A stretch of DNA of 64,000 nucleotides from Planctomycetales bacterium. Lineage in GTDB: Bacteria > Planctomycetota > Planctomycetia > Isosphaerales > Isosphaeraceae. Location of the stretch: the NCBI GenBank assembly GCA_027449865.1, contig DAIDKV010000269.1, forward strand, positions 1 to 64,000, in the 5' to 3' direction. Under the pieces are notes generated by a model. It searched no databases and was not told the DNA's origin. It saw only the letters and a program-made list of their open reading frames with translations. A program made the translations under genes and the position numbers. Positions 355-19,491 of this stretch are shown here, in pieces. How positions within the stretch are numbered: position 1 is the first letter of the stretch; each line of letters begins with the position of its first letter.

Positions 355-3300
355 TTACTCGCCCCCGGACGTGCGCGTCTGGTATTCGCGGAGATAGGCC
401 CGGTACGCCGGATCCTCGGGACGCTTCACCTCGGGTCCGAACGGGAACGGCGGCATTCCACGCCAGGGGAGCGGGCCCACCGTCTCACTCCTCGCCGTGA
501 ATGGATCGGCGTCCTTGCAGTAGCCGTACGATCGCAGGACGTAGCTTCGCGTCCAGCCTTCCGGAAGCTTCGGCAGGCTCGTCGCGTCGAACTCGATCCG
601 AATCTCATCACCCGGTCCAACCAGGCAAAGGCGGTCGTCGTCGGAGGTCAGCAGGTCGCGGACGTCGCCGTACCGCGTCATCTTCCCCGAGAACCAGGCG
701 AGCGGAGCCGGGTCGACATAGTCGTAATCGTAGAGCAACGGCAGGCGGCCGTCGGGGGAGACCTCACGCGTGTAGCCGCGATGACCGAGCGTCGCCGAGG
801 CGACGGGCAGAGTCTGAATTCGGAGCGATCTCTCCGCGCCGGTATCCCGAACGGCGACGAACGCCTGGTCGTAGTAGCATTCCATGTTCGTCCGGATCCG
901 GATCACGCAGCGAGGGCCGGTCAACTTGCCGGTCAGGTCGGTCGTCATCAGCCGGGGCAAGCCGGCCGGGTATCCGGCGTGCGGCTCAATCACCTCCCAC
1001 GTTCCGTCGTCGCGCCGGCGCTCGATCGTTGGGGGAGAGAGAACGACGCCGGCCGTCGCCGCCGCGTAGTTCGTCTGCGAGTACGGGTACTCGACCCATC
1101 CCGCGAGGCAGAGGACCAGACGATCCGCCGGCTTGAAAGGAGAAAGCCGATCGCCGAAGTCGAGGACGATCCCGTGCTCCTCGGTGTAGCCCGACCATTC
1201 ACGGAGGCGCTGGAAGTGGTCGGCCGTCCGGCGGTCGAAGTCGCGGAGGGTCTCGGTGAGGTCGCGGCCTTCGAGGTCGACGGCGCGCACCGGGTCGATC
1301 CGCTTCCGCCAGGCGATCGGCTCGCCGGTCGGACGCGGACCCTCGGGGGCAAATCGCTCGTCGGGCGTGGTGCTCACGCCGGGCGGGCCGTCGTTCACTT
1401 CGAGCTTCAGGTGATCGACATAGGCGATCTCGTCCATCGGTTCGGTGACCGAGATCCGAAACCGGCCGCCGATGGGTCGAAGCTGATCGCTGGAGATCGC
1501 CATGGATTCGTCGCGGTCGGGCTGACCATAGACGCCCGGCGCCACCATGTAGCCGAGGCCGCCGCCGCCGAGGAAGTCGCCGAGGCAGACGTATCGCTCG
1601 CCGTTCCACGTGAAAAGTACCGGGCAACTTCCTGTCTTTCGGTTGTTCTCGCGGATCTCGACCAGGCTGTCCGCGGCGAGGTTCAGCTCGCACTGGATCA
1701 CGCCGTCGGGCCATCGGAGGTGGACCAGATCCACCCTCGGACTTTTGCCCAGCCCGAGGACCACCGGCGCGATCGACTGGCCGAGGCCGGAGTCGGGGGT
1801 GGTCAGGTCGTACGAGGCCCGGACCCCCTGCCCTTCCAGCGCGATTCGGGTTCCGATCGCGTGCGAGTTCGTCCGCATGAGTTGCGGCTTGACCCGCCAG
1901 TGGCCGCCGAGCCGGAGGGCGAGCCAGTGCTGGCCGTTGCCGAGGTTCGCCGCGACCTGAGGAGGGCCGTCGGTCTGGATCGCGAGGAGATCGGGCAAGG
2001 CGTCGCCAACCAGGTCGATCACCTGCATAGCGGTCGACGTGCCGGGCGACTCCGGATTCCCGAGGGATTCGCCCGCGAACCGCTTCCCGTCGTTGCGGGC
2101 CCAGGCCGGGGTGGGAGTGCCCTGCCCCGGGATGGCCGGAGGTCCGACCAGGTCGGGCAGGCCGTCGAGGTCGAGGTCGATCGCCTGGGCCGTCCGCCAT
2201 CGAGTCACGTTGATGGGCCACCGGGCGAACGCGATCTTCGAGGGATCGGGGGTCGTCCGCTCGGTCGTGTTTCGCCAGGCAAGGACGGAATCCTCGGCCC
2301 GAGGCGCGACGAGGTCGGTTCGACCGTCGGCGTCGATGTCGCTCGCGAGCAGGCCCGAGAAGCCGACGAGGTTCACATCCGACGGGGCCTCGATCGCCGA
2401 CTCATGAAACCGACCGAGCCGGTCGTTGAGGAGCGCCACGGGAGGGCCGCCGTCGTGGGCGAGGACCAGGTCGAAATCGCGGTCGTTCTCCAGGTCGAGC
2501 CAGGCCACTCCGACGTGCGGACGAGCCCCGCCCGAGAGCGGCGAGCCCTCCGGCCAGGCGGTGAACGCGAGTGTCAGCCCGCGCTTCGACGAGATGACAT
2601 CGAAGGCCGTCGCGATCGGGGCCTGGCCCTGGATCGTTTGTGCCGACTTCGGATCGGGGCGGCCGTCGTTCCGGTAGGCGACGTTCGCGAGGCCGGGCGG
2701 CGGACTGGCACCCGGGCGGAACGCCTCGGCCGCCTTCGACGCCTCGCAGTGGTTCAAGACGTAGAGGTCGAGGTCGCCGTCCTGGTCGATATCCAGCCAT
2801 CGGGCCGTCAGTGAGAGAGCCTTCGAGCCGGCGGACTGGAGCGAGGCAGAGACGTCCTCGAAAGCCTTGCCGTCCTTGTTGCGAAGCAGTCGGTTGTCGC
2901 CGATTCCGGTGAGGAAGAGGTCGATGTGGCTGTCGGCGTCGAAATCCGCCGCGGCCACGCCGACGCTCGGGCGATCGACCGGGATGCCGTACGCGAGAGA
3001 GACGTCCTCGAACTTGCCGTCGCCGAGGTTGCGCAGGAGGACGTCGCGCGGGCCCTTTGGTCCGACCACCGCCGAGGCGAGGTAGAGGTCAAGGCGGCCG
3101 TCGCCGTCGACGTCGAACGCCGAAACCGAGGCGCCGAAGCGGGTACGGATGCGACCGATCACGGCGAGGCCGCCCTGGAAATCCTCGTCCTTCACCCAGC
3201 GCTGGTAGCTGGGCTTCGCGACCTGGATCGGAGCCCAGGGGCCAAAGCGAGGCGAGGGAGCGGCGGCGCGTTTGTCGATGGTCATGCGGAAGGGGTCGAT

Positions 3301-4158
3301 GGCGGAGGCGTATCGGCCCATCTCGCCGTAGGATTTCTCAACGACGTTGCCGGTTCCGGGCGCGGCGCCCGGCTGGTCGATCAGGAGCGACCGCCAGCGA
3401 TCCATGGTCGACCTGGCCTTCGCCGGATCGCCCGAGAGTCGGTAAGCCTGCTGGAGCTTGTAGAGAGCCTGGACGAGATAGGGGTCGAGCTTCAGGGCCT
3501 TTTCGAGGGGTTCGATCTGCTGGCGGGCCTGCTTCCGGGCGTCGCCGAGGCCGGGGCTCTCTGAGTCGGTGACGGTCGTGGCGACCCAGTACCAGGCGGC
3601 GGCGTCGAGCGGATCCTTCTCGACGACCTTGCGGAAGTGGGCGTTGGCCTCGGCCAGCCGGCCGATCTGTTCGAGGATGATTCCGCGGCAATAGTGCGCG
3701 TGGAGGTTCTCGGGATCGCGTTTCAGGATGTCGTCGAGCAGGCCAAGAGCCTCCTGGAAGTTGGAGGAGATCCCCTGCCCTTCGCCGCCGTGCTTCTTCC
3801 TGGCCGCCTCGTCCTCGCCCGACTTGTTCAGGAGCGCGATCGCCAGGTTGATCGATCCGGCGATCCAGCCCGGGGCCTTTGCGTGGACCTCGCGAAACGC
3901 GGCGATCGCTTTCTGGTACTCGTACTGCTCCAGGAAGCCGATCCCCTCGACGTGGGCCTTCATCACATCGGCGAGGGCGGCGGCGGGGATTTCGTCCCGG
4001 AGCGGGCCGGACGGGGCCGGCTCGGGTTGGCTCGTCGTTGGGACGGGCACCGGCGCGGTGAGGTTGGGCTCGGGCTCGGATTGACAGGCGGACGCGGCGA
4101 TCAGGGCCGACGCCGCGACGCAGGCGAGGGCCAGTCGACGAAGGGGACGCGGAAACAT
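355..4158 (-). CDS. Secreted TPR / FG-GAP (VCBS) / ASPIC-UnbV domain protein
   Basis: A predicted 1267-residue exported protein of unknown substrate. I start it at 4158 (MFPRPLRR), where a basic, hydrophobic signal segment begins and Cys25 could be a lipidation site; a longer frame to 4251 adds an Arg-rich stretch overlapping the nitrilase gene and is unlikely. Residues about 50-260 hold TPR-like helices. About 340-690 contain repeated calcium-site motifs of the FG-GAP type (DVDGDGRLDLYL near 343, DIDQDGDLDLYV near 451, DIDADGRTDL near 603). About 750-830 match the ASPIC/UnbV domain (LRWPDGVIQ near 813). The last 400 residues are not recognised. The CRTAC1-like combination of FG-GAP and ASPIC is common in planctomycetes and usually thought to mediate extracellular binding. 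It is last in a minus-strand run with the nitrilase and a secreted TPR protein. Confidence 0.88.
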   Translation of the reverse strand: MFPRPLRRLALACVAASALIAASACQSEPEPNLTAPVPVPTTSQPEPAPSGPLRDEIPAAALADVMKAHVEGIGFLEQYEYQKAIAAFREVHAKAPGWIAGSINLAIALLNKSGEDEAARKKHGGEGQGISSNFQEALGLLDDILKRDPENLHAHYCRGIILEQIGRLAEANAHFRKVVEKDPLDAAAWYWVATTVTDSESPGLGDARKQARQQIEPLEKALKLDPYLVQALYKLQQAYRLSGDPAKARSTMDRWRSLLIDQPGAAPGTGNVVEKSYGEMGRYASAIDPFRMTIDKRAAAPSPRFGPWAPIQVAKPSYQRWVKDEDFQGGLAVIGRIRTRFGASVSAFDVDGDGRLDLYLASAVVGPKGPRDVLLRNLGDGKFEDVSLAYGIPVDRPSVGVAAADFDADSHIDLFLTGIGDNRLLRNKDGKAFEDVSASLQSAGSKALSLTARWLDIDQDGDLDLYVLNHCEASKAAEAFRPGASPPPGLANVAYRNDGRPDPKSAQTIQGQAPIATAFDVISSKRGLTLAFTAWPEGSPLSGGARPHVGVAWLDLENDRDFDLVLAHDGGPPVALLNDRLGRFHESAIEAPSDVNLVGFSGLLASDIDADGRTDLVAPRAEDSVLAWRNTTERTTPDPSKIAFARWPINVTRWRTAQAIDLDLDGLPDLVGPPAIPGQGTPTPAWARNDGKRFAGESLGNPESPGTSTAMQVIDLVGDALPDLLAIQTDGPPQVAANLGNGQHWLALRLGGHWRVKPQLMRTNSHAIGTRIALEGQGVRASYDLTTPDSGLGQSIAPVVLGLGKSPRVDLVHLRWPDGVIQCELNLAADSLVEIRENNRKTGSCPVLFTWNGERYVCLGDFLGGGGLGYMVAPGVYGQPDRDESMAISSDQLRPIGGRFRISVTEPMDEIAYVDHLKLEVNDGPPGVSTTPDERFAPEGPRPTGEPIAWRKRIDPVRAVDLEGRDLTETLRDFDRRTADHFQRLREWSGYTEEHGIVLDFGDRLSPFKPADRLVLCLAGWVEYPYSQTNYAAATAGVVLSPPTIERRRDDGTWEVIEPHAGYPAGLPRLMTTDLTGKLTGPRCVIRIRTNMECYYDQAFVAVRDTGAERSLRIQTLPVASATLGHRGYTREVSPDGRLPLLYDYDYVDPAPLAWFSGKMTRYGDVRDLLTSDDDRLCLVGPGDEIRIEFDATSLPKLPEGWTRSYVLRSYGYCKDADPFTARSETVGPLPWRGMPPFPFGPEVKRPEDPAYRAYLREYQTRTSGGE

Positions 4159-4247
4159 TCGGCACGCTCCCGGATGACGAATCGAGGACAGATGAGGAAC
4201 CGCGCCGGTCCATCGAGATTGATAGAAGAATGGGCGTCGGCGCCGGC

Positions 4248-5189
4248 TCATGAGGGACGGACACCGGGGCGATGGATGGTCCGGGCGTAGAGGTCAGTAT
4301 AGGCTTCGGTCCGGAGGTGGGAAAGGAGATGATGGCCGGTCCGCCGGCCGCGCTCGTCGCGGAGGGCGGCCAGGTCGATCGGCCCGACGACGATCTTCTC
4401 GCCGGGTCCCGGATCGGCCTGGGCGAGGATCCGGCCGTCGAAATCCACGATCATGCTGCCGCCCGGCCAGGAAAACGGCGGATAATTCGAGGCGCTGGCG
4501 CCCTGGTTGGCGGCGACGACGTAGGCGAAATTCTCGGCGGCTCGGGCGCGATTGAAGAGGGTCCACCAGTCCATCGGCGGCGTGGCGCCCCAGGGGTCCA
4601 TGTAGGCCGAGACGCGAATGAGCACCTCCGCTCCGTTGATCGCGAGGGCGCGGATCGCCTCGGGAAAGAGCCAGTCGTAGCAGATGGCGGCGCCCAGGCG
4701 GCCGATCTCGGTCTCGGCGACCGGGAACATCGGCTCGTCGTATCCGGTGAGGTCGTGCGGGCTGGCGTGAAGCTCCCAGGGGAGCCAGGGATTGACCTTC
4801 CGGTATCGAGTCAGTATCCCGTCGGGGCCGATCAGGCAGGTCGTGTTGAAGACCACGCCCGGCCATCGCTCGTCGACTTCCAGGAACGTTCCGGTCTGGA
4901 TGTAAACGCCCCGCTCGCGTGCTTTTTCGATGTAGCGGTCGGTGTGTTCGTTGGGGATCGGGACGGCAAGGCGGTCGATCAGTTCGTCGACGGTCTCGTA
5001 GATCGGCGCGACGTGGGCGAACTCGGGGAACACGACCAGCTTGATGTCGAAGAACGGACCGTAACCAATCACGGCGCGGTCGATCATTCCGAGCAGGTAT
5101 CCGACTCGTTCCGGGATCGCCCGACGATCGCGGGGGCAAGGCAGATCGGTCTGACAGGCGGCGGCGTAATAGCGATTCGGGGCGGACAT
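4248..5189 (-). CDS. Nitrilase-superfamily carbon-nitrogen hydrolase
   Basis: A 313-residue cytosolic amidohydrolase of the nitrilase superfamily, which cleaves amides, nitriles or carbamoyl groups through a cysteine thioester. The Glu-Lys-Cys triad is visible: Glu56 in VVFPEFA, Lys131 in RYRKVNPW and Cys170 in AAICYDWLFPEA. Length suits the family. The start at 5189 is preceded by GAGGT at suitable spacing. The YRKVNPWLPWE context resembles aliphatic amidase and formamidase branches more than true nitrilases, but the substrate cannot be read from sequence. The gene lies 54 bp downstream of the secreted TPR gene and 89 bp upstream of the ASPIC gene on the same strand, so co-transcription is possible. 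No metabolic partner is obvious. Confidence 0.9.
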   Translation of the reverse strand: MSAPNRYYAAACQTDLPCPRDRRAIPERVGYLLGMIDRAVIGYGPFFDIKLVVFPEFAHVAPIYETVDELIDRLAVPIPNEHTDRYIEKARERGVYIQTGTFLEVDERWPGVVFNTTCLIGPDGILTRYRKVNPWLPWELHASPHDLTGYDEPMFPVAETEIGRLGAAICYDWLFPEAIRALAINGAEVLIRVSAYMDPWGATPPMDWWTLFNRARAAENFAYVVAANQGASASNYPPFSWPGGSMIVDFDGRILAQADPGPGEKIVVGPIDLAALRDERGRRTGHHLLSHLRTEAYTDLYARTIHRPGVRPS

Positions 5190-5243: not shown

Positions 5244-6218
5244 TTAGTGGACCTCGGCCGGGGGTTTCTCGGGACCATCCCCCTGCCCTTCCCCTGGCTT
5301 TTTCGGCGGCGAGTGGTTGCTGGCGAAGAGGAACGCGGAAAGAGCCACGTCGGGCTTCCGGTTCGGGTCGTCGAGCCGGAGGAAGACGTCGGCGGCGCGG
5401 GCGGTCCGGCCCGAGAGGAACCAGTGGGCACCCAGGAGGAGCCAGGCGTCGCGATCGTCGGGGTGGGCCTGGACGTAGGATTCCAGGCGAGAGAGCTGCT
5501 GGTGGAACTTCTCGGGCTCGCCATAGATCGATTCGATGTCGGGGGCGGTCGCGAGCCAGCCGGGCTCGGCGGTCTCGGCGTCGCGGAGGCGAGCGGCGGC
5601 CTCGGCGTATCGGCCGCGGACCATCGCCAGCTCGGCCATCCGAAGGTGGGGCGCGGCGCGGTTGGGCGCGGCGGCCAGTGCCTGCTGATAGCGTTCCTCG
5701 GCCTTCTTGAGATTTCCACCGCGGAAGAGGCGATCGCCGAAGGTCAGCAGGTGGGCGGCTCGGTCGGGATCGGCGGGCTTGCGGGTCGCCGGCGCCGGCG
5801 CGGGCGCGGGAAGGGCCCGAGCCGGAGGCGGCGGCAGGAGCGGACCCTGGACCGCCATCGGCGGCGGCAATGGGACCCCAAATTCCGAGTAGTAACCGAA
5901 CGGACTCATGACCGCGCCCGGATACGGCGGGGAATAGTACAGAGCCGGTCCCATCGCGTACTCGTACGGCCAGAAGTACCCGAAGGCTCCGTATCCGCCA
6001 CCGACCGCGGCCAGCCCCGGAACTCCACCAGGATGGCGAGGCCCGCCCAGGGAAGGCCCTCCGCCGAGAGTCGGCCCGGGGTGCATCGGGAAGCCGCCGA
6101 GTTGGACGTGTCCCCCTCCGCCGCCGCCCATGTGTCCGCCGCCATGCCGGGCAAGGGCCGCGGCGGGAATCAGAAGGAGGAAGCAGAGTACGAGGCCGGG
6201 CATCGTGCGCCGCAGCAT
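5244..6218 (-). CDS. Secreted Gly/His-rich TPR protein
   Basis: A 324-residue exported protein. The N-terminus (MLRRTMPGLVLCFLLLIPAAALA) is a good signal peptide, and GAGGGGG lies upstream of the 6218 start. Residues about 24-55 are very rich in Gly, His and Met, followed by a Tyr/Pro/Gly stretch to about 110 and a Pro/Ala linker. Residues about 130-300 form TPR-like helical repeats (for example HLRMAELAMVRGRYAEAAARLRDAE). The C-terminus is charged and Pro-rich. The architecture suggests a periplasmic or surface scaffold; the Gly/His segment might bind metal, but that is inference. A candidate promoter lies just upstream, making it the likely first gene of a unit with the nitrilase and ASPIC genes. 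Confidence 0.85.
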   Translation of the reverse strand: MLRRTMPGLVLCFLLLIPAAALARHGGGHMGGGGGGHVQLGGFPMHPGPTLGGGPSLGGPRHPGGVPGLAAVGGGYGAFGYFWPYEYAMGPALYYSPPYPGAVMSPFGYYSEFGVPLPPPMAVQGPLLPPPPARALPAPAPAPATRKPADPDRAAHLLTFGDRLFRGGNLKKAEERYQQALAAAPNRAAPHLRMAELAMVRGRYAEAAARLRDAETAEPGWLATAPDIESIYGEPEKFHQQLSRLESYVQAHPDDRDAWLLLGAHWFLSGRTARAADVFLRLDDPNRKPDVALSAFLFASNHSPPKKPGEGQGDGPEKPPAEVH

Positions 6219-6384: not shown

Positions 6385-9300
6385 TCACAGGTGCGGGATG
6401 GTCGTGGCTCTGGGGAACGGTCGGGAGGTCGGCCCGCCTGGTCCGGGCTGGCCCTCGATCCCGCCGAGGACGGCGCCCCGTCCACCGGCCGTGGTCGGAT
6501 CGAGCGCCAGGTCGGTCGGCAGGATGCGGCCAGGGACCGGGCGCTGACGGAACTTCGGGGCGACGAGCCGGGGCCCGATCACGTTCCGCATCGCATGGTT
6601 CGACGGCCAGAAGAGCTTGCTCCATTGCTCCTCGATCTCTTCGCGCTGGAGGCCCGGCAGGACACCCTCGGCCGTGGAGAGGACGCGTCCCAGGTCGAAC
6701 GCATCATCCTGGGCCTGCCAGAAAAGGAGGTCGCCGGCGAAGGTGTTGGCGTCGAACCGGAGCAAGGTTCCTTCGCGGGCCTTGCCCTCCTGGATCGTGA
6801 AGAAGGCGGAATGGCGCGAGTGAACCAGCCAGGGCCGATCCGGTCCGGCGGGAAGCCCCGCCCAGGGGCCAAGCTCGACGAGCGATCGTCCGGCGGCGAC
6901 CGTGCAATGGTCCAGGCAGAGGTCGGCGTCGAAGGCCGAGCGACGGACGCGTCCGGGATCGAGGGCAAACGCGGTTCGGTCGGAGGCGATCTCACAGTTT
7001 GTCAGCGTGATCAGCCCTCGGCCCAGCTCGGCTCGGATCGCCGCCTGGTCACCGATCAGAATGGAGTCGATCAGCCGGCAAACCGGCCGGTCGATCGGCG
7101 ATTGGAAGGCCAGGCCGGAAGCCAGCTCGGGCATTGGACGTGTCGTCGGAGCCCGGAAGACGATCAGGTCGCCGGCCGGAGTCGAGAGGCCGGGCGGCAC
7201 GATCAACCGGCATCGCGAAAGGATCAGGTGCGCATCGCGGAGCGAGAGCAGGCCGCCGAGCCGGGCCTGCGGATCGTGGCGGAGCACCAGCCCTCGAAGC
7301 GAGAGACTTCCGCCCTGAAGCTCGATCAATCCTGGACCGGCCGAGCCGGGTGCCGGCGACCAGCTCGGCGGCTCGTCTCCGCTTCGGGGGTCCATCTCGA
7401 CCACAATCTCGAGCGCCAGCCCATCGGGTAGTCGAACGCGGGTCATCGTGTGCGAGCCCGATCCGATCATGCGAACCCGAACATGCCGGTCGCCTGGTCG
7501 GATCCGATCGCGGAGGAAGGCGCCGAGGTCGCCGCCCCACGTCGAATCGTCGGTTCGCATCACGAGCGATTCCGGACCGAACGCGAAAAGTTGCGGCGCG
7601 GGCTGGGGGATCTTCGGGTCGTTGTACGCGCCGATGGTTTTTGGAACGAGACCGGCCGAGGGGTAGGCCGGCTGGCTCACCAGCGCGGGACGATCCACCA
7701 GAAACGTGGTGAGATCGTCGGCGACCAGCCAGGTCTGATCGCGGGAAAGCGACCAGTCGAGTGCGAGCCATCGGCTGGCCTCCTCCGAGGCGTTCCACGT
7801 GGAACGGGCCGACGGGAAGCCGTTGTCGGTGAGGTTGGGGACGGGTCCGCGCGCGAGCATCCCCTTCCAGCCGGCGAACAGATTGTCGTGGCCCGACCAG
7901 GCGACGAGCCGATCGGGAGGGGTTCGGTTGTCCTCGGTGACGAGAACAGCGGCGATCCCGGTGGAAGCCAGCCGCCCGATCGCCGAGCCATCGGCGCGGA
8001 TCAGGAGCGGGCGAGTGGGGATCGTGGTCGAGCCGTCTCGATCGAGCCGGATCATCGGGCCGGGCGACGCCAGGATCGCGTTGGCGAGGAAGATCCTTGG
8101 CTCCGCGCGGCCCAGCCGCCGCTTCACGCGGATCAGCGGGACGTTGCCCGCCGAGACGAGAGCGGAGCCGTCGATCGCGAGGTCCACCGGGCCGCCGCTC
8201 AGTTCCACGGCGGTCATGGAGGCCCCGCGCACGAGCGTACGCTCCAGAAGGATACGCGCCGGGTGGTCGGTCGGCCTTGGTGGCGAGGGTGGGGGGTCCT
8301 GCCGGATCAAGGTGAACGGAAGCGGCTTCCGGTTGATCACGGTGATCGTGCAGTCTCGGATCGTCAACTGCGAGCCCGAGCAGGCGAAGAGAACCTTCTG
8401 CTCGCCGAGCAGGTCGCTCGCATCGACGAGGATGTCGAGTCCTTCGAGGACCAGGTGCTTGTTCTTCAGGACGATGTACGCGGAGCGATCCTGGGGCGGA
8501 CGATTCCGCGAGGGGAGAATCCGGACGATGGGACGAAAGCCCAGCCGGGCGCGCACGACGCGCACCTCACCGGAGACGTGAACATCGTCGATCGTGAGCG
8601 GTCCGGCGTCGGCGATCTCGACCACTCCGGCCCGGTGGCGGTCGAGTGCATAAAGGAGGTTCGGCTCGGTCACGCCGTCGCCTGGTCCAGCGACCCGACG
8701 CACGACGACCTTCGGGTCGTCCGGACGGATCGGCGATGGAGCCCGGGTCCAGTCGGGAAGGTGGACGCGATGGGCCGCAATCCCGAGCGGATCTGGAACG
8801 GGCTCGCCCGAGATCCGGTCGAGGTCGGCCGGTTCGGTCCAGGGGGGAATCGGAGCCGGGACAGGTGGCTGGGGTGGTCGGCGATCTGGGTGGGGGCGAA
8901 CGATCGTCGGCACGGCTGGGGGAGGGTCGCGATGCCCGACGGCGGGAGCCGGCGGCGGAACCACCTCGGCCTGCTCTGGATTGGGCGAGGGCTTCGGCGA
9001 GGCCGGACCGCCCAGGATCGCGGTGAACCCCACCACGAAAAGCACCGCGAGCAGAGCGACTCCGCCCGTCTGGAGAATCCATCGAGGAAATGGCTCGGAG
9101 TCCGCGGCCGGGATCGTCTCGTCGATCGGCTCGTCGTCGTCGAAGCGGTCGTCGAACTCGTCGGATTCCTCCACGACCGGAGCGGATGTCCCCTGCCCCG
9201 CGAGGTCCGGCATTGGCCGGGCCTCGGCCGATCGAGAACCGAAGCGAGGGCGGGGCTCGTCGAGAGCCGAGGCCAGGCCCTCCAGCGCATCGAGCAGGAT

Positions 9301-10299
9301 GGGCGCCTCGTCGTCATCGGGTTGGGAGACGTCCGGACGGGGCGTTCGTGCGGTTCGCAGCGTCGGCCAGTCTTCCGAGGGATCATCGTCGACGATCGCG
9401 TCGAGGACGACCGTCTCGCCTCGGTCGGGATCGTTTGGACGAGCCGCGTCCTCGATCGCGTCGATCAACTGGTCGTAATCGGCGTAGCGGTCCTCGGGCT
9501 GCTTCGCCATCATTCGGCGGAGGATCGTCGAGATCGCCCCCGGGATCTCCGGGCGGAGGTCGCGGATCTCCGGCGCGGGGGTTCGGGCGTGCCGGGTCAG
9601 TTTTTCCGTGATGTCGCCGCCCGGAAACGGTGGGACGCCAGCCAGCAGGTAGTAGAAGGTGCATCCCAGCGAGTACATGTCGCTCTGAATGCTGGTTGCC
9701 CGGCTGTCGCGTGCCTGCTCGGGCGCCATGTAATCGACGGTGCCGACGGTGGTTCCCTCTCGGGTGACCCGCTCGTCCTCCGTCTGCGATTGAAGCGCTA
9801 GACCCAGGTCGATGATCTTGGGCTGGCCGTTTGGAGTTCGCAGAATGTTCGAGGGCTTGATGTCGCGGTGGATCAGGCCACGTCGGGCGGCATAGCGAAG
9901 GCCGCCGCAGACGCCCCGGATCACCGTGAGCGTTTCCTGGACACTGAGCGGCCCGTTTCGCTGGACGTAATCGTGGAAGTCGCCGCCGCCGACGTATTCC
10001 AGGACGAGGTAGTGCCGGCCCTGGTCGACGCCCCGGTCGTAGATGGTGGCGATGTTTCCGTGTTCGAGCGTCTCCGCCGACCGGGCCTCGCGGAGGAATC
10101 GCTGAAGGAGCGTCGAACTTCGGGCGAGTGATCCGGAGAGGACTTTCAGAGCGACGATCAGGCCGGTGTCGACATGCCGGGCCTTGAAGACGATACTCAT
10201 CCCGCCGCTACCGATCGCGTCGAGGACGAGGTAGCTCCCGATCCGCCGGCCGACCAGCGGATGACTCGATGGCCCGGGTGGCGAAGGTGATTCTTCCAT
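6385..10299 (-). CDS. Membrane Ser/Thr protein kinase with large beta-helix-like outer region
   Basis: About 1304 residues from the 10299 start (MEESPSPPGP); an upstream start at 10383 would add 28 Arg-rich residues. Neither start has a clear ribosome site. Residues 22-285 are a Hanks-type kinase: Gly loop IGSGGMSIV near 29-37, Lys52, catalytic HRDIKPSN at 144-151 (Asp146), DLG at 164-166 in place of DFG, and an APE motif (YMAPEQAR). An acidic linker leads to one transmembrane segment at about 403-425 and a Pro-rich spacer. The remaining 800 residues have repeated short beta-strand patterns with 'LVLEGLDI', 'LTIRDCTI' and 'LSLRGLVL' steps typical of right-handed beta-helix (pectin-lyase-like) folds. 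It is probably a receptor-type kinase. An exact parS palindrome lies inside the outer-region coding sequence at 7792. Confidence 0.9.
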   Translation of the reverse strand: MEESPSPPGPSSHPLVGRRIGSYLVLDAIGSGGMSIVFKARHVDTGLIVALKVLSGSLARSSTLLQRFLREARSAETLEHGNIATIYDRGVDQGRHYLVLEYVGGGDFHDYVQRNGPLSVQETLTVIRGVCGGLRYAARRGLIHRDIKPSNILRTPNGQPKIIDLGLALQSQTEDERVTREGTTVGTVDYMAPEQARDSRATSIQSDMYSLGCTFYYLLAGVPPFPGGDITEKLTRHARTPAPEIRDLRPEIPGAISTILRRMMAKQPEDRYADYDQLIDAIEDAARPNDPDRGETVVLDAIVDDDPSEDWPTLRTARTPRPDVSQPDDDEAPILLDALEGLASALDEPRPRFGSRSAEARPMPDLAGQGTSAPVVEESDEFDDRFDDDEPIDETIPAADSEPFPRWILQTGGVALLAVLFVVGFTAILGGPASPKPSPNPEQAEVVPPPAPAVGHRDPPPAVPTIVRPHPDRRPPQPPVPAPIPPWTEPADLDRISGEPVPDPLGIAAHRVHLPDWTRAPSPIRPDDPKVVVRRVAGPGDGVTEPNLLYALDRHRAGVVEIADAGPLTIDDVHVSGEVRVVRARLGFRPIVRILPSRNRPPQDRSAYIVLKNKHLVLEGLDILVDASDLLGEQKVLFACSGSQLTIRDCTITVINRKPLPFTLIRQDPPPSPPRPTDHPARILLERTLVRGASMTAVELSGGPVDLAIDGSALVSAGNVPLIRVKRRLGRAEPRIFLANAILASPGPMIRLDRDGSTTIPTRPLLIRADGSAIGRLASTGIAAVLVTEDNRTPPDRLVAWSGHDNLFAGWKGMLARGPVPNLTDNGFPSARSTWNASEEASRWLALDWSLSRDQTWLVADDLTTFLVDRPALVSQPAYPSAGLVPKTIGAYNDPKIPQPAPQLFAFGPESLVMRTDDSTWGGDLGAFLRDRIRPGDRHVRVRMIGSGSHTMTRVRLPDGLALEIVVEMDPRSGDEPPSWSPAPGSAGPGLIELQGGSLSLRGLVLRHDPQARLGGLLSLRDAHLILSRCRLIVPPGLSTPAGDLIVFRAPTTRPMPELASGLAFQSPIDRPVCRLIDSILIGDQAAIRAELGRGLITLTNCEIASDRTAFALDPGRVRRSAFDADLCLDHCTVAAGRSLVELGPWAGLPAGPDRPWLVHSRHSAFFTIQEGKAREGTLLRFDANTFAGDLLFWQAQDDAFDLGRVLSTAEGVLPGLQREEIEEQWSKLFWPSNHAMRNVIGPRLVAPKFRQRPVPGRILPTDLALDPTTAGGRGAVLGGIEGQPGPGGPTSRPFPRATTIPHL
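7792..7805. promoter_or_regulatory. Putative parS site (ParB binding), copy 1
   Basis: Exact GTTCCACGTGGAAC, extended by flanking C/G to a 16-bp palindrome (7791-7806). It lies inside the coding sequence of the Ser/Thr kinase. Identical to three other copies in the first 22 kb and to the core of the chromosomal parS sequence known from Pseudomonas and others; parB is encoded at 18550. Confidence 0.8.
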
Positions 10300-11689: not shown

Positions 11690-12006
11690 CGGGATCGCTT
11701 CCCACGAGGGAGGGCTCCGGTTGGAAACCAGGAACGAGCGGACGCCTCGCCGCCGGGCGAGGATGGGGCCGGTTCGATGGGTCGGGCGGGGCGGCGTTGC
11801 CCACTTCCACCCGACTCGGTGATGAGTCATTCAGGGCTTCGCGCCGAGGATCTGTCCGGTAGCCGAAGGGTCGAACGAAATTAGCGGGGAACGTTTGGTC
11901 GGTTCCACGTGGAACGCCGGTCCTGAAACAGTGGCCTGTGTTCACCCGATCGCGGGCCCGGAGCCCGGCCTCTGCTTTTCGCGTCTCCCCTTCTCGGATT
12001 AAAGCG
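11690..12006. other. Intergenic region upstream of ECF sigma gene
   Basis: The 317 bases after tRNA-Arg(TCT) contain a parS palindrome at 11902-11915. I see no T-rich terminator for the tRNAs and no promoter close to the sigma-70 consensus. A minus-strand frame through this region also crosses both tRNAs and is not a gene. Confidence 0.6.
11902..11915. promoter_or_regulatory. Putative parS site (ParB binding), copy 2
   Basis: Exact GTTCCACGTGGAAC in the intergenic region about 90 bp upstream of the ECF sigma start. It might also sit near that gene's promoter, but the identity with three other copies around parB favours the partition role. Confidence 0.82.
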
Positions 12007-12720
12007 ATGAGCGATGAGCGGCTGACCGATATTTCCACCATCTGGACCACCATCAGCAGCGCCCATACCCCCGGGCCGAAGAGCCAGGCCGCGATGGAGG
12101 AGCTCGTGGGCCGATACCACGACGCGGTCACTCGCTACATCCATTTGAAGGTCCGAGACAAGCACCTCGCCGATGAGGTTCTGCAGGAATTCTGGACCAA
12201 GCTTCTGACCGGGAAGCTCTCCGGCGCGGACAAGAGCAAGGGGCGATTCCGCGATTACCTCCGGACCGTGCTGCATCGGCTCATCATCGACCACTTCCGT
12301 GCGAAGAAGGTGCAATCTCTTCCGCCCGGAGACCTGCTCGACGCTAGCCGGCGAGACGAGGATTTCGACCGGGTCTGGCGCGAGGCGGTGATCAATCGGG
12401 TCTGGACGCGACTGGATACCTACCAGGCGACCACCCCCAAGAACCGATATGCCACCGTCTTGCAGTTGCGTCGCGATTTTCCCGACGCTCCGATCGAGGA
12501 TCTCGCGGAGAAGCTCGGCCAGATCCTCAAGAGTCCGGTCCGTCCCGAAGCCTTTCGCAAGACCCTCCAGCGGGCCCGGGCGAAGTTCATCGAACTACTC
12601 ATCCTCGAACTCCGCGAGACCATCCATTCGGGCCGAGACGAGGATATCGAGGCCGAAATCTACGATCTCGGCCTGGGCCCCCTGTACCGCCGATATTGCT
12701 CGGCCACGCACGACGAGTGA
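12007..12720 (+). CDS. ECF-type RNA polymerase sigma factor
   Basis: A 237-residue sigma-70 family factor of the extracytoplasmic-function size class. Region 2 is clear at about 27-95: 'MEELVGRYHDAVTRYIHLK' followed by LADEVLQEFW and DYLRTVLHRLIIDHFR. Region 4 is weak: about 135-200 contain helices but not the usual SYxEIAxxLG signature, having ATVLQLRRDFPDAPIEDLAE instead, as in several planctomycete-specific ECF groups. I chose the start at 12007 (MSDERL); the frame opens at 11938 but that extension is Arg/Ser-rich and lacks homology features. No anti-sigma factor or zinc-binding anti-sigma motif is adjacent, so activity may be controlled by a distant kinase or by expression level. Confidence 0.87.
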   Translation: MSDERLTDISTIWTTISSAHTPGPKSQAAMEELVGRYHDAVTRYIHLKVRDKHLADEVLQEFWTKLLTGKLSGADKSKGRFRDYLRTVLHRLIIDHFRAKKVQSLPPGDLLDASRRDEDFDRVWREAVINRVWTRLDTYQATTPKNRYATVLQLRRDFPDAPIEDLAEKLGQILKSPVRPEAFRKTLQRARAKFIELLILELRETIHSGRDEDIEAEIYDLGLGPLYRRYCSATHDE

Positions 12721-12859
12721 CCCGGCCCTCGCGTTGGTGATTTCCCGCCGCCGTCGAGCCATCCACGCCGGGAACGCATCTCCTTGCGATGTCCGGGATT
12801 TTTTGCACGAATTTCTTGGGATTCATCGTGCGGGAGCCGATGAAAATCCGCCCATCCCC

Positions 12860-12887
12860 TTGACCGGGTCGTTTCAGCATGTACAGT
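12860..12887 (+). promoter_or_regulatory. Candidate csrA promoter
   Basis: TTGACC (12860-12865, 5/6), 16-bp spacer, TACAGT (12882-12887, 4/6). It predicts a 5' leader of about 120 nt before csrA at 13017. The rest of the interval 12721-12859 shows no other signal. Confidence 0.5.
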
Positions 12888-13016
12888 TGAATGAAGGCGG
12901 TCTGCGCAACGCCGGGTATTCACCGGCGAGAACGGCATCCCGCCCCTCCCCGGTCGCCTGTTGGCTCACAGCAATGGATGTACGCGCCGAGCGCAAAGCC
13001 CCAGAGGGGAACGGCA

Positions 13017-13226
13017 ATGCTGGTTCTCTCGCGCAAGAAGAATGAGAGCATCATCATCAACGACAACGTCACGGTGACCGTGATCGAGATCCGGGGGGAC
13101 AAGGTGCGAATCGGCATCGAGGCCCCCAAGGACGTGACGGTGCATCGTCGCGAGGTGTACGAAGCGATTCAGAACCAGGCCCGGTCGGCCGATCAGGGCA
13201 CGAAGGTTGGACGGTCTGAGGACTGA
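13017..13226 (+). CDS. csrA: Carbon storage regulator CsrA
   Basis: A 69-residue RNA-binding translational regulator. It opens with the near-invariant MLVLSRKKNESIIIND, followed by VTVIEIRGDKVRIGIEAPKDVTVHRREVYEAI, the five-strand CsrA core. The homodimer binds GGA motifs in mRNA leaders, blocking ribosome access. The start at 13017 follows AGAGGGGA with good spacing; the longer frame from 12891 is not supported. The family often regulates flagella and central carbon use, but no flagellar genes, FliW or CsrB/C-like RNA is adjacent. The leader contains GGGGA next to the start, so autoregulation is possible though unproven. Confidence 0.97.
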   Translation: MLVLSRKKNESIIINDNVTVTVIEIRGDKVRIGIEAPKDVTVHRREVYEAIQNQARSADQGTKVGRSED

Positions 13227-14200: not shown

Positions 14201-15151
14201 TCATATCCGCCCGCGTTCCGCTCCGAGGGCGTCCAGGTGGGCGTCGACGCTTCCGGCCAGGATCGGGACGTTGTAGCCGCCCTCCAGGACGCTGACGATC
14301 CGGCCTTCCGCGTGGGTCTCGGCGACCGAGACGATTTCTCGGGTGAGCGTTTCGAAGTCCTCGATCTCGAGGCCCAGGTCGCCGACAGGATCCTCGGCGT
14401 GGGCGTCGAAGCCGGCGCTGATCAGGACCAGCTCGGGCCGGATCCGATCGGCGAGCACCTCCAGGCCGGCTCGAAACGCGGCGTGGTAGGCGGGGCGAGC
14501 CGTTCCATGGGGCAGGGGGATGTTCTTGACATGGCCGAGGCCCGGCCCGGTCCCGGTTTCCTCCCGAGCGCCGGTGCCTGGGTAGAACGGGTATCGATGG
14601 ATCGAGAGAAAGCCAACCCGAGGCGAGTCGTAGAAGATTTCCTGGGTTCCGTTGCCGTGATGGACGTCGAAGTCGACGATCAGGATTCGATTCAGGTCGA
14701 ACCGTGCGAGGGCATGGGCCGCGGCGAGGGCGATGTTCGCGTAGATGCAGAAGCCCATCCCCGAGGCGGGCCGGGCGTGGTGACCGGGCGGACGGACCAG
14801 GCAGAGGGCGCGGCGGTCGGGACCAGCCATCACGTGCGAGACGGCGTCGATCGCCGCGCCCGCGGCCAGGCGAGCGGCGGTCAGGCTCCCGGAGAGGAGC
14901 CAGGTATCGGGATCGAGCATTCCGCCTCCGCTCGCGTCGAGGTCAATCACCTTTGAGAGGTACTCGGGGGCATGGACCCGTAGCAGCTCCTCGACGGTCG
15001 CCTCGTGGACGGGAAAGCTCGGGCAGGTGTTGTGATAGCCGGCCCGCTCGATCTGCCGCAAAACGGCCTGTAACCGCTCGGGCCGCTCGGGGTGCGGGGT
15101 CGGCGTTCGATGCTCGATCATCCGACGATCCGTGAAGAGTGCGACGCCCAT
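14201..15151 (-). CDS. Histone-deacetylase-family zinc amidohydrolase
   Basis: A 316-residue zinc-dependent deacetylase of the HDAC/AcuC/acetylpolyamine-amidohydrolase superfamily. It shows RPPGHHA (His124, His125), DFDVHHGNGTQ (zinc ligands Asp162 and His164), SAGFDAH (third ligand Asp249) and LEGGYN near the end. Bacterial members remove acetyl groups from acetylpolyamines, acetoin-pathway proteins or lysines; which applies here is unknown. The start at 15151 (MGVALFTDRR) follows GAGGGGA; the frame upstream to 15391 is Arg/Pro-rich and not coding. The adjacent intergenic region holds a parS site. Confidence 0.94.
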   Translation of the reverse strand: MGVALFTDRRMIEHRTPTPHPERPERLQAVLRQIERAGYHNTCPSFPVHEATVEELLRVHAPEYLSKVIDLDASGGGMLDPDTWLLSGSLTAARLAAGAAIDAVSHVMAGPDRRALCLVRPPGHHARPASGMGFCIYANIALAAAHALARFDLNRILIVDFDVHHGNGTQEIFYDSPRVGFLSIHRYPFYPGTGAREETGTGPGLGHVKNIPLPHGTARPAYHAAFRAGLEVLADRIRPELVLISAGFDAHAEDPVGDLGLEIEDFETLTREIVSVAETHAEGRIVSVLEGGYNVPILAGSVDAHLDALGAERGRI

Positions 15152-15241
15152 GGATGATTCCCCTCGCCACGATTCCCGATCCGTCCCCGCGAAGTGGTTG
15201 CCTCGACCGGCTGATTCTACCAGAAGGCCGAGCCGGGGGGC

Positions 15242-15255
15242 GTTCCACGTGGAAC
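15242..15255. promoter_or_regulatory. Putative parS site (ParB binding), copy 3
   Basis: Exact GTTCCACGTGGAAC in the 191-bp divergent region between the HDAC-family gene and the GT39-like gene, about 3.3 kb from parB. Confidence 0.85.
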
Positions 15256-15342
15256 GGGTAAATCGGGGCAGGGGAGGGGATCGTGGAAGGTCGGGCGGAC
15301 CGGATTTACCCGGGGCCGCGCCGGCCGTTAGAATCGTCGGCC

Positions 15343-17049
15343 ATGAGCACCGATCCCTCCCCCATGCCTCCGATTCCCCGGCGTGAGACACTCGCGATCG
15401 CCGCGTTCACGGTTTTCGGCGGTTTGTTGAGAGTGTGGTCGATCGGACATCTGGGTCTCGTCCACTTCGACGAGGGAATCTACGCGATGGCGGGGACCTG
15501 GATCCTCTCGCCGAGAGGACTCGCCGGGATCGATCCGACGCTGATCTCCTACGCGCCGCCCGGTTTTCCCTCTCTGGTCGGGCTCGCGTATGGGCTCTTC
15601 GGAATCGGGGATATCGCGGCCATCCTGGTTTCGATCGCGATGGGAACGCTGACAATCCCCGTCGTCGGCTGGCTCGCCCGAAGAACGTTTGGCCCGGGAG
15701 CGGGGGCGGTGGCGGCGGCAATGGCGGCGATGTCGGGTCCGCACATCGGCTTCTCCCGGATGGCCCTGACGGATGCGTCGTTCCTGTTCTTCTGGCTGGT
15801 CGCGATCGGGATGGGGCAGCGGTTTCTGGAGCGGCCTGGGGCGCTCCGGGCGGTCTTGCTCGGGATCGCCGTCGGGCTGGCCCAGCTTTTCAAGTACAAC
15901 GGATGGCTCGCGGGGGTGATTGTCGCGCTCTCGGCGTCGGCCTGGATCGCGACCCATCCCGAGGCGCGAAACCCTCGCGAGCAGGCTCGAATCTGGGGAT
16001 GGGGGGCGCTGGCGGCGGTCGTCGCGGCGGTGGTGTACCTGCCCTGGTTCAGGTTCGTCGAAACGCACGGAGGATACTCAGCTCTTCTGGCGCACCATCG
16101 AAGCTACATGGGCGGACCATCCACCTGGATCGGGCATCTTCGGATTCAGATCCGAGAGGATGCTCTCCTGATGCGAGGTCGGCAGTGGATGGGGCTGGTG
16201 GGCGTTGGGACGATGATCGGGGTGCTGGCGTCGTTCCGATGGATGGGCGGCTCTCGACGCCTCTCGGCGAGCCGGTTTCTGGAAGCCCTCGGGCTCGCGG
16301 GGTTTCTCCTGTTCGCCATCGAGGCTTTTGTCGGCGGGGCGGCGGCCCTGGTGGTTCTGGCGATCCGGTTTGGTTGGAACGTCTCGCGGGGGGTGGCTCT
16401 GGTTGCGGTGGGCTGGGGCCTGATGGCTCTGCTCACGCCTTTCTATCATCCCTACGCACGGCTGACGCTGCCGCTCCTGGGGCTCACCTGGGTTCTCGTG
16501 GGCGGCGCGGCGGCCATCCTGTTTGCGTATGCCGTGGAACGTGTCGGCGTGGGGCGTCTTACCTTCTTTTTCGGGGGCCAGACGATTCTCGTCCTGGCGC
16601 TCTTGCCTGAATTTGGCAACTGGCAGGGGGCGTCCTGGACCCATCCGCTGCTCGAATCGTCGGACTCGCTTCGGCTGGCCTGCCGATCGGTCGCGGCCGA
16701 GCTGCCGAGAGACGTCCCGACGCTCCGGATCCACGCCCGCCCGCCCGTGACGTTCTATCTTTCGGGAGTCGTCCCGGTCGCGCTCCAGGCGACACCCGAG
16801 GGGCTTGTGAGCCGGTCGGATCGGAGATCCTGGGTCCTTCTCGACTCGGCGATGCTGGGGCCCGGTGGCGCGGAGCGTGCCCGGCAACTGGCCCGTTCCC
16901 CGAGCTTCGAGCTGGTCCGTGAGATCCCGACGAGGATGAACCTGCCGACTCTTCTCGATGTCGATCCGTCGACGCCGATCCAGTCGCCGATCGACGTTTC
17001 GGCTCCGTTGTTCCTGCTTCGACCGAAGCGACCGGGAGTTGCCCGATGA
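15343..17049 (+). CDS. GT39/ArnT-like membrane glycosyltransferase
   Basis: A 568-residue polytopic inner-membrane protein with around ten hydrophobic helices. The first extracytoplasmic loop carries HFDEGIYAM (Asp43, Glu44), the acidic pair diagnostic of polyprenyl-phosphate-sugar-dependent transferases (protein-O-mannosyltransferase, ArnT, GT39/GT83). Such enzymes move a sugar from a lipid carrier to protein or lipid on the outer face of the inner membrane. The start at 15343 (MSTDPS) is preferred over 15283. Its last codons overlap the ATG of the nicotinate phosphoribosyltransferase gene in an ATGA arrangement, so the two are translationally coupled although their functions look unrelated. 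Confidence 0.85.
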   Translation: MSTDPSPMPPIPRRETLAIAAFTVFGGLLRVWSIGHLGLVHFDEGIYAMAGTWILSPRGLAGIDPTLISYAPPGFPSLVGLAYGLFGIGDIAAILVSIAMGTLTIPVVGWLARRTFGPGAGAVAAAMAAMSGPHIGFSRMALTDASFLFFWLVAIGMGQRFLERPGALRAVLLGIAVGLAQLFKYNGWLAGVIVALSASAWIATHPEARNPREQARIWGWGALAAVVAAVVYLPWFRFVETHGGYSALLAHHRSYMGGPSTWIGHLRIQIREDALLMRGRQWMGLVGVGTMIGVLASFRWMGGSRRLSASRFLEALGLAGFLLFAIEAFVGGAAALVVLAIRFGWNVSRGVALVAVGWGLMALLTPFYHPYARLTLPLLGLTWVLVGGAAAILFAYAVERVGVGRLTFFFGGQTILVLALLPEFGNWQGASWTHPLLESSDSLRLACRSVAAELPRDVPTLRIHARPPVTFYLSGVVPVALQATPEGLVSRSDRRSWVLLDSAMLGPGGAERARQLARSPSFELVREIPTRMNLPTLLDVDPSTPIQSPIDVSAPLFLLRPKRPGVAR

Positions 17050-18549: not shown

Positions 18550-19491
18550 GTGAGCAACGTGAAGGGACGTCGACTCGGGCGCGGGCTGGAAGCCCTGCTC
18601 GGGCGTGAGGAGGGGGGCTTTGAGCCGTCTTCATATGAAGGAGCCGAGCTGATCCAGGTCTCCGTCGACCAGGTCGATGCGAACCCGTTCCAGCCCCGCC
18701 GTCAGTTCGATCCGGCCGAGATCGCCGCACTCGCCGAATCACTTCGCCAGCACGGGATGATTCAGCCGATCATTGTCCGGGCGGTCGGACTTCGGTATCA
18801 GCTCATTGCCGGCGAGCGCCGGCTTCGGGCGAGCATCGAGGCCCAGCTTCATGAGATCCCGGCGCGCGTTCTCGACCTCGACGATCAGCGCGTCTTCGAG
18901 CTGGCGATGGTCGAGAACCTTCAGCGCGAGGATCTCAACGCGGTCGACAAGGCGACGGCGTTCAAGGATTACCTCGGGCGGTACGGCGGGACGCAGGAAG
19001 AACTGGCCGGACGTCTTGGCCTCGACCGATCGACGGTCTCGAACCTGATCCGGCTGCTCGAGCTTCCGGAGGAGGTTCTGGGCGCGGTGCGAGCGAACCA
19101 GATCACGCAGGGGCACGCCCGGGCCCTGCTGGGACTTGCGGAGACGGAGACGCGGATCGTCGCCTATCGACGAGTTGTGACCGAGCACCTTTCCGTGCGT
19201 CAGACCGAGGCGCTGGTGACCACGGGCGTCCCGACCCCGAGCCGGCCCCGCGTCCGCAAGGATCCGGCGCACACCGCCGAGGCTCGCGCGCCGCACTTTC
19301 ACCACTTCGAGCAGGCGCTGAACGAGCGTCTCGGGGCGACCGTGGCCGTTCGAGGCCGAACGCCCGATCGTGGGCAGATTGTCATCGACTTCCACTCGCG
19401 CGACGAGCTCGACCGGATCGGCCGGGCGATTGGGCTGGAACTTCCCGCTGCGGAGAGCCAGCCGGCGCTCCCGGCTCCCGAGGATCTCTGA
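18550..19491 (+). CDS. parB: Chromosome-partitioning protein ParB
   Basis: A 313-residue CTP-dependent DNA clamp that loads at parS and recruits ParA and SMC for segregation. The N-terminus (GRRLGRGLEALLG) is the ParA-stimulating segment. The ParB/Srx CTPase domain includes NPFQPRR (45-51), GERRLRA (88-94) and ENLQREDLNAVDKA from 122. The helix-turn-helix for parS reading is about 147-170 (ELAGRLGLDRSTVSNLIRLL), and a C-terminal dimer domain follows. The start is GTG at 18550. No parA lies next to it, which is unusual compared with the common parAB pair. Four exact parS palindromes flank it within 11 kb. Confidence 0.97.
   Translation: MSNVKGRRLGRGLEALLGREEGGFEPSSYEGAELIQVSVDQVDANPFQPRRQFDPAEIAALAESLRQHGMIQPIIVRAVGLRYQLIAGERRLRASIEAQLHEIPARVLDLDDQRVFELAMVENLQREDLNAVDKATAFKDYLGRYGGTQEELAGRLGLDRSTVSNLIRLLELPEEVLGAVRANQITQGHARALLGLAETETRIVAYRRVVTEHLSVRQTEALVTTGVPTPSRPRVRKDPAHTAEARAPHFHHFEQALNERLGATVAVRGRTPDRGQIVIDFHSRDELDRIGRAIGLELPAAESQPALPAPEDL

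Follow-up and report, generated by a model that had tools for sequence, protein, structure and literature searches.

We analysed a stretch of 64,000 nucleotides (the window) of contig DAIDKV010000269.1 (assembly GCA_027449865.1, positions 1 to 64,000, forward strand) from a Planctomycetales bacterium of the family Isosphaeraceae. On its reverse strand the window carries a gene for a protein of 1304 amino acids, in which an N-terminal Ser/Thr kinase domain of the Hanks type is joined via one membrane helix and a proline-rich stalk to a long outer region (ectodomain) that consists, by profile comparison, of two homologous modules. We suggest that the protein is probably a single-pass receptor Ser/Thr kinase that senses an envelope or extracellular ligand. 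As far as the structural models can be trusted, what is new is a receptor kinase with a tandem beta-helix-like sensor that lies outside Pfam and NCBIfam and is conserved in one bacterial class. The gene and the parts of its product are as follows:

6388..10299, (-): kinase-receptor coding sequence, 1304 amino acids, stop codon at 6385-6387
9481..10227, (-): Hanks-type Ser/Thr kinase domain, residues 25-273, presumably cytoplasmic (PF00069, E 3.6e-49; motifs from a 33-sequence alignment)
9007..9063, (-): single transmembrane helix, residues ~413-431 (hydropathy scan, mean 2.38 over 19 residues)
8767..9006, (-): proline-rich, putatively extracytoplasmic stalk, residues ~432-511 (sequence; Pro fraction in 31 sequences)
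7786..8715, (-): predicted N-terminal beta-helix module (N module), residues ~529-838, with W-x-G-x-x-N-x-F near its end (AlphaFold2 models; VIA, a second look at Foldseek's own hits, Z 14.9, root-mean-square deviation (rmsd) 3.2 over 185 residues to 4z03)
7576..7785, (-): inter-module segment, residues ~839-908 (alignment A2 of the ectodomains)
6802..7575, (-): predicted C-terminal beta-helix module (C module), residues ~909-1166, homologous to the N module (hhalign, E 2.6e-8; VIA, Z 15.1)
6388..6801, (-): C-terminal region, residues ~1167-1304, with near-invariant Trp, Gly and Pro positions and no confident model

Gene start, kinase domain and membrane helix

The open reading frame (ORF) and its start codon were compared with those of L002, a relative that is 81% identical. 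Upstream of the ATG at 10299 the frame is not kept in L002, and downstream of it the first 300 bases match at 93%, with mismatches nearly all in third codon positions. Because the frame of the relative breaks just upstream, with a coding-type match from there on, ATG 10299 is the likely start, in agreement with the original prediction, and a longer protein starting from ATG 10383 was rejected. Moreover, the frame is not a chance ORF, since the ectodomain is matched (E<=0.001) in 34 of 45 genomes of the family, at one locus each, and open frames of 1264-1509 codons are present in 31 of these 34 loci, one of them being the window's.

The Pkinase family (PF00069) matches residues 25-273 with 167.9 bits against a gathering cut-off of 31.7, and all other Pfam matches of the protein at E<=1 are kinase-fold families over the same region, apart from one subthreshold match over the membrane helix. 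The protein carries the motifs VALK (with the catalytic Lys), HRDIKPSN and IDLGLA. HRD is found in 32 of the 33 aligned rows, the remaining one (L073) being truncated; the D-x-G motif reads DFG in L065 and DMG in L072, and L069, like L073, lacks its front part. Over all 33 rows the activation loop is nearly invariant. Residues 413-431 form the sole strongly hydrophobic stretch of the protein, and every front-complete relative has an equivalent one, accompanied by a second, weaker stretch in eight of them. Thus, both the DLG-type Hanks kinase domain and the single membrane helix that had been read from the sequence alone are confirmed. The 70 residues following the helix have a mean Pro fraction of 0.20 (range 0.04-0.36, 31 sequences).

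Two more familiar identities were considered for the kinase. The best NCBIfam match is NF033483, the PknB/Stk1 PASTA kinase (E 4e-79, residues 23-314). At 267.1 bits this match stays below the cut-off of 450, and Pfam shows no PASTA family at E<=1, i.e. a PASTA receptor kinase was rejected. An anti-phage defence kinase (PD-T4-6 and others) was likewise rejected, as among the PADLOC matches listed (25 of 34) all lie within residues 14-325, which comprise the kinase domain and the start of the juxtamembrane segment.

The ectodomain and its predicted fold

When the two halves of alignment A2 were aligned to each other (hhalign, split at residue ~900), they matched with 95% probability and E 2.6e-8 over 224 columns; on this profile comparison the ectodomain is an internal duplication of two homologous modules. 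A single beta-helix of 800 residues was therefore rejected in favour of two modules with a variable joint. The segment between them varies widely in length and composition, and in many orthologues it is rich in Pro and Ala. Most rows contain W-x-G-x-x-N-x-F/Y towards the end of the first module, and a related motif, W-Q-x-x-x-D-x-F/Y, is found near the end of the second module in many rows. Nine Trp positions (801, 811, 835, 849, 1146, 1157, 1194, 1226 and 1231) are conserved in 29 or more of 31 orthologues, and no Lys column exceeds 17 of 31. In nine loci of clade A (defined below) that list both parts separately, identity is 29-42% for the ectodomain versus 57-72% for the kinase, i.e. the ectodomain diverges faster, as expected of the sensor part.

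Sequence families hardly recognize this region. The ectodomain of the window protein has no Pfam match at E<=1, and the 32 ectodomain rows of A2 touch just three families at this threshold, one row each, with Glyco_hydro_28 (GH28) as the best (E 0.018). Among 33 distant relatives, three touch Beta_helix (PF13229; best E 0.0046), which the window protein does not. A comparison with polysaccharide lyase families, by which the original prediction was to be checked, gave no family match by sequence: at E<=1 the window protein matches neither these families nor GH28, and the single GH28 match is the only such contact in the 32 plus 33 ectodomains. No solved relative of the ectodomain was found by sequence at E<=10, and the family profile, when compared with solved structures, gave four weak and apparently unrelated matches (best E 0.03). 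A phage origin was rejected, since there was no match among 50,697 phage records and no relative was confirmed in viral contigs.

AlphaFold2 models were built from three sequences. In the model of the whole ectodomain two islands stand out, with ten-residue means of the predicted local distance difference test (pLDDT) mostly of 61-80 and 63-86; the second island ends near residue 1040 and thus covers the first ~130 residues of the C module, and no confident model was obtained for the final ~140 residues. The N module modelled alone has a predicted template modelling score (pTM) of 0.67 and a core mostly at 70-85. Both models consist of runs of short strands, often in threes, making the outer region beta-rich, and block means in the cores are mostly about 60-86. 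The best solved match of the whole ectodomain in Foldseek is 5gkd, an alginate lyase of polysaccharide lyase family 6 (PL6; E 9.2e-5). In VIA, the N module of this model superimposes on the PL3 pectate lyase 4z03 with Z 14.8 and an rmsd of 3.1 over 185 residues, the separately modelled N module does so with Z 14.9 (rmsd 3.2 over 185 residues), and the C module matches 4mxn with Z 15.1 (rmsd 3.0 over 184 residues). The 50 matches listed for the N module when modelled on its own have Z 13.0-15.7 and are, by title, beta-helix proteins, i.e. lyases, hydrolases, tailspikes, adhesins and autotransporters. Based on these models, both modules are likely to be right-handed parallel beta-helices. The original prediction had envisaged one long beta region of pectin-lyase style and proposed structure prediction of residues 480-1304; the low-confidence models do show parallel beta-helix character, but in two homologous modules instead of one continuous helix.

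Distribution and descent

An orthologue is present in 33 of the 45 Isosphaeraceae genomes, counting two contig-end fragments (G018 and G024); the 34th matched genome (G003) contains a paralogue of clade B (L072) and was excluded. In a search with profile A2, 41 of the 45 genomes gave some match, the added ones being weak and probably paralogues, and four (G012, G034, G036 and G040) gave none. Across the phylum, members were found in 30 of 392 genomes, all of the same class, which corresponds to 30 of 40 same-class genomes versus none of 352 elsewhere if the 40/352 split, as read from the order of the result list (50 rows listed), is taken at face value. Within the class, 128 of 198 genomes have a member, 41 of these being Isosphaeraceae. 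In 38 regions with further members, a clear kinase lies in the same ORF in 37. One locus of family f3 (L112:3847-5802) has a frame of 652 codons with an ectodomain match and a weak partial kinase match, and perhaps encodes a receptor with a degenerate kinase.

A tree of 126 kinase domains, with 26 kinases of genome G365, 29 other kinases of the window's own genome and six outgroup loci as background, groups the window protein in clade A (50 tips, support 0.947) and also recovers a clade B of 15 tips (support 1.0); A, B and three further kinases, namely L175/L192, L156 and L178, form one clade with a support of 0.786. Out of 58 kinase loci from two genomes, four match ectodomain profiles at E<=0.1, namely L175, L137, L143 and the window kinase, which is itself among the profile rows. 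All four are within, or identical to members of, this larger clade. These counts apply to loci carrying short flanks only, in which a distant ectodomain could be missed, and to 30 of the 94 Pkinase matches of the window's genome. Taken together, tree and profiles suggest that kinase and ectodomain have mostly stayed joined during their descent. The window's genome has at least three members: the window protein, L097 (1328 codons, clade B) and L192 (also L175; G000:C257), whose frame of 947 codons contains one related beta-helix-like module. In G365:C1, the clade B member L114 and the clade A member L115 (kinases at ~4.363 and ~4.400 Mb) are about 40 kb apart, and the congener genome G327 has nearly the same spacing between clade A and clade B.

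Signalling model, candidate ligands and neighbouring genes

Hanks receptor kinases signal by ligand-induced pairing and activation-loop phosphorylation. In the window protein the kinase would lie in the cytoplasm, and the membrane helix and the proline-rich stalk would place the two predicted beta-helix modules in the periplasm or on the cell surface, with the stalk keeping the sensor away from the membrane; we infer this N-in topology from the need of the kinase for ATP, its sole basis. There the modules may bind a ligand or partner; candidates are glycans, envelope polymers and secreted proteins, among them the adjacent tetratricopeptide repeat (TPR) protein described below. Binding might change the spacing or pairing of two receptors, whose kinases could then transphosphorylate their activation loops and relay the signal. 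We consider a receptor the best reading because the activation loop is near invariant, the ectodomain diverges faster than the kinase and the stalk would hold the sensor off the membrane.

Several observations weigh against this reading. The positive charges flanking the membrane helix (51 before and 39 after, in 31 sequences) do not clearly set the topology. As to the fold, mean pLDDT is low (46.8 for the whole ectodomain and 56.5 for the N module alone), the models stem from three-sequence input and reach fair confidence just in their cores; in Foldseek, the best matches of the whole ectodomain have a template modelling score (TM-score) of ~0.2 (0.19-0.20 for 5gkd) with an rmsd near 24, and the N module alone has no Foldseek match at E<=1e-3. 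The family is, judging by G012, one of the genomes without any profile match, not indispensable, and the gene row that accompanies the receptor was not found in 12 loci outside Isosphaeraceae. Absences are soft, as the phylum search scored at most two and the class search at most five candidates per genome, and L192 was missed by the genome-wide A2 profile search. Profile A2 includes one clade B row (L072); built without this row, it gives no match for L100, L103, L129 and L130, and a full rebuild of A2 recovers just L100 of the four. A further profile (A4), of which these four are not rows, recovers all of them, each with a kinase. Finally, L156 and L178 are inside the kinase clade without an ectodomain match, and an earlier tree, built against a smaller background of kinases, supported the A grouping at just 0.19.

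The order of kinase, helix and sensor is not in itself new. In PASTA-type receptor kinases (PknB/Stk1), too, a Hanks kinase at the N terminus is followed by one membrane helix and a C-terminal extracytoplasmic sensor; the window protein differs from them in having no PASTA repeat and a predicted tandem beta-helix-like ectodomain instead. In plant wall-associated and lectin receptor-like kinases, an outer binding region is also linked by one membrane pass to an inner Ser/Thr kinase; here, the chain order is the opposite, with the kinase N-terminal, the ectodomains are unrelated, and we claim no common origin. PL6 alginate lyases and PL3 pectate lyases share the predicted right-handed beta-helix fold with the window ectodomain, and PL6 chains of similar length also hold two beta-helix domains, but the window ectodomain has no sequence-family match to them and no evidence of catalysis, and is fused to a kinase. 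Pkinase matches number 28 to 94 per genome in six planctomycete genomes, the window's genome having 94, and, to our knowledge, the signals of most of these proteins are not known. Closest in phylum and plan are the single-spanning planctomycete Ser/Thr kinases with a cytoplasmic Pkinase domain and periplasmic WD40 or TPR arrays (Odelgard et al. 2024, PMC11032199), i.e. planctomycete kinases with periplasmic repeat domains are, going by this survey's text, known already. The survey sorts accessory domains by Pfam; the window ectodomain, having no Pfam match, would presumably be counted there as Pkinase-only, and the word 'helix' is absent from the survey's main text. In the open-access literature we found no description of a beta-helix ectodomain on a Ser/Thr kinase by a search that would miss unhyphenated spellings. 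A kinase lineage present in many genomes of the class and bearing a Pfam-invisible ectodomain would give the phylum a defined receptor family for testing, and a transposon essentiality map has been published for Planctopirus limnophila (PMC10632474).

What such a receptor binds may be approached from the fold and from the genes next to it. Three genes follow the kinase gene on the same strand:

5244..6218, (-): TPR-repeat protein, next gene downstream, signal-peptide-like N terminus (by eye), candidate partner (TPR_19, E 5.4e-12)
4248..5189, (-): carbon-nitrogen hydrolase, nitrilase superfamily (PF00795, E 8.3e-36)
355..4251, (-): large TPR / FG-GAP / ASPIC-UnbV protein, lipoprotein-like N terminus (by eye) (PF13517, E 1.7e-26; PF07593, E 3.8e-8)

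In 32 loci of the family, of which L069, L052 and L062 are cut by contig ends, L073 is a fragment and L072 belongs to clade B, a TPR gene and a nitrilase-like gene each lie on the same strand within 3 kb downstream of the kinase in 24, and an FG-GAP/UnbV gene in 21. The 24 loci with the TPR gene represent 12 of the 17 genera having an ectodomain match.

The original prediction saw in the outer region a carbohydrate-reading, direct sensor of polysaccharides, in which, as we would put it, a specific glycan docks in the grooves of the beta-helices and thereby switches the kinase. With the predicted fold a polysaccharide sensor is plausible, and we regard a direct one as quite possible, albeit short of probable. 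Most of the 50 structural matches listed for the N module are, by title, carbohydrate-active enzymes or phage tailspikes, Foldseek ranks PL6 alginate lyases with tandem beta-helices highest for the whole ectodomain (at low TM-scores), and the nine conserved Trp could be sugar-stacking residues. However, the fold is common also to adhesins and autotransporters, and adhesive beta-helices would be equally compatible with it and with the conserved tryptophans as glycan reading is; the Trp positions may be structural, as in the motifs at the module ends. Apart from the one GH28 contact no lyase or hydrolase family is seen by sequence, there is no well-conserved lysine, and lyase and glycoside hydrolase families are absent from the tested neighbours, i.e. 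ten at six loci outside the family and four beside the window gene. Outside the family, the neighbours nearest to sugar chemistry are a GFO/IDH/MocA oxidoreductase (two loci), a sugar-phosphate-type nucleotidyl transferase (one locus) and a xylose-isomerase-like TIM barrel (one locus); in the window, a PMT_2-type glycosyltransferase (15283-17049) lies on the opposite strand, ~5 kb from the kinase gene. If the ligand were indeed a glycan, the protein would provide a direct route from polysaccharide to kinase in bacteria.

Alternatively, the beta-helices may serve as protein-protein scaffold or envelope anchor that binds the adjacent TPR protein or a cell-wall or S-layer protein and reports the state of the envelope, a tentative proposal that we hold slightly less likely than direct glycan sensing. 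The recurrence of the TPR gene and the signal-peptide-like start of its product are in line with it, as are the adhesin-type beta-helices among the structural matches. Yet the conserved order may be operon inertia only. Since none of the 12 loci examined outside the family shows the row, it is improbable that the TPR protein partners this kinase lineage in general. A more speculative version of the receptor reading, rather doubtful at present, combines elements of both: the tandem beta-helices might read the surface glycans of the own cell or of a neighbour and report the state of envelope or surface, as a class-wide planctomycete counterpart of wall-sensing receptor kinases.

It is very unlikely that the beta-helix is an artefact of shallow alignments that hides another beta-rich fold. 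The low mean pLDDT and the poor Foldseek result of the isolated N module would fit such an artefact, but both modules give the same fold class though they are alike in sequence just at profile level, and the three distant relatives touch Beta_helix by sequence alone. Least probable of all is the reading of the ectodomain as an active lyase or hydrolase of polysaccharides joined to the kinase, for which the fold class and the one GH28 match among the 32 family members would speak, since that match is the only lyase or hydrolase family at E<=1 in 65 scanned ectodomains and no lysine column exceeds the 17 of 31 given above.

Two further gene groups lie elsewhere in the window. A sigma-70 region 2 protein (11938-13226, (+)) is followed by CsrA, and this sigma ORF cluster recurs in 23 loci. 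A protein with a histone-deacetylase domain (14201-15391, (-); E 1.9e-90) is encoded ~3 kb from ParB (18550-19491, (+)), with the gene of the PMT_2-type glycosyltransferase standing between the two.

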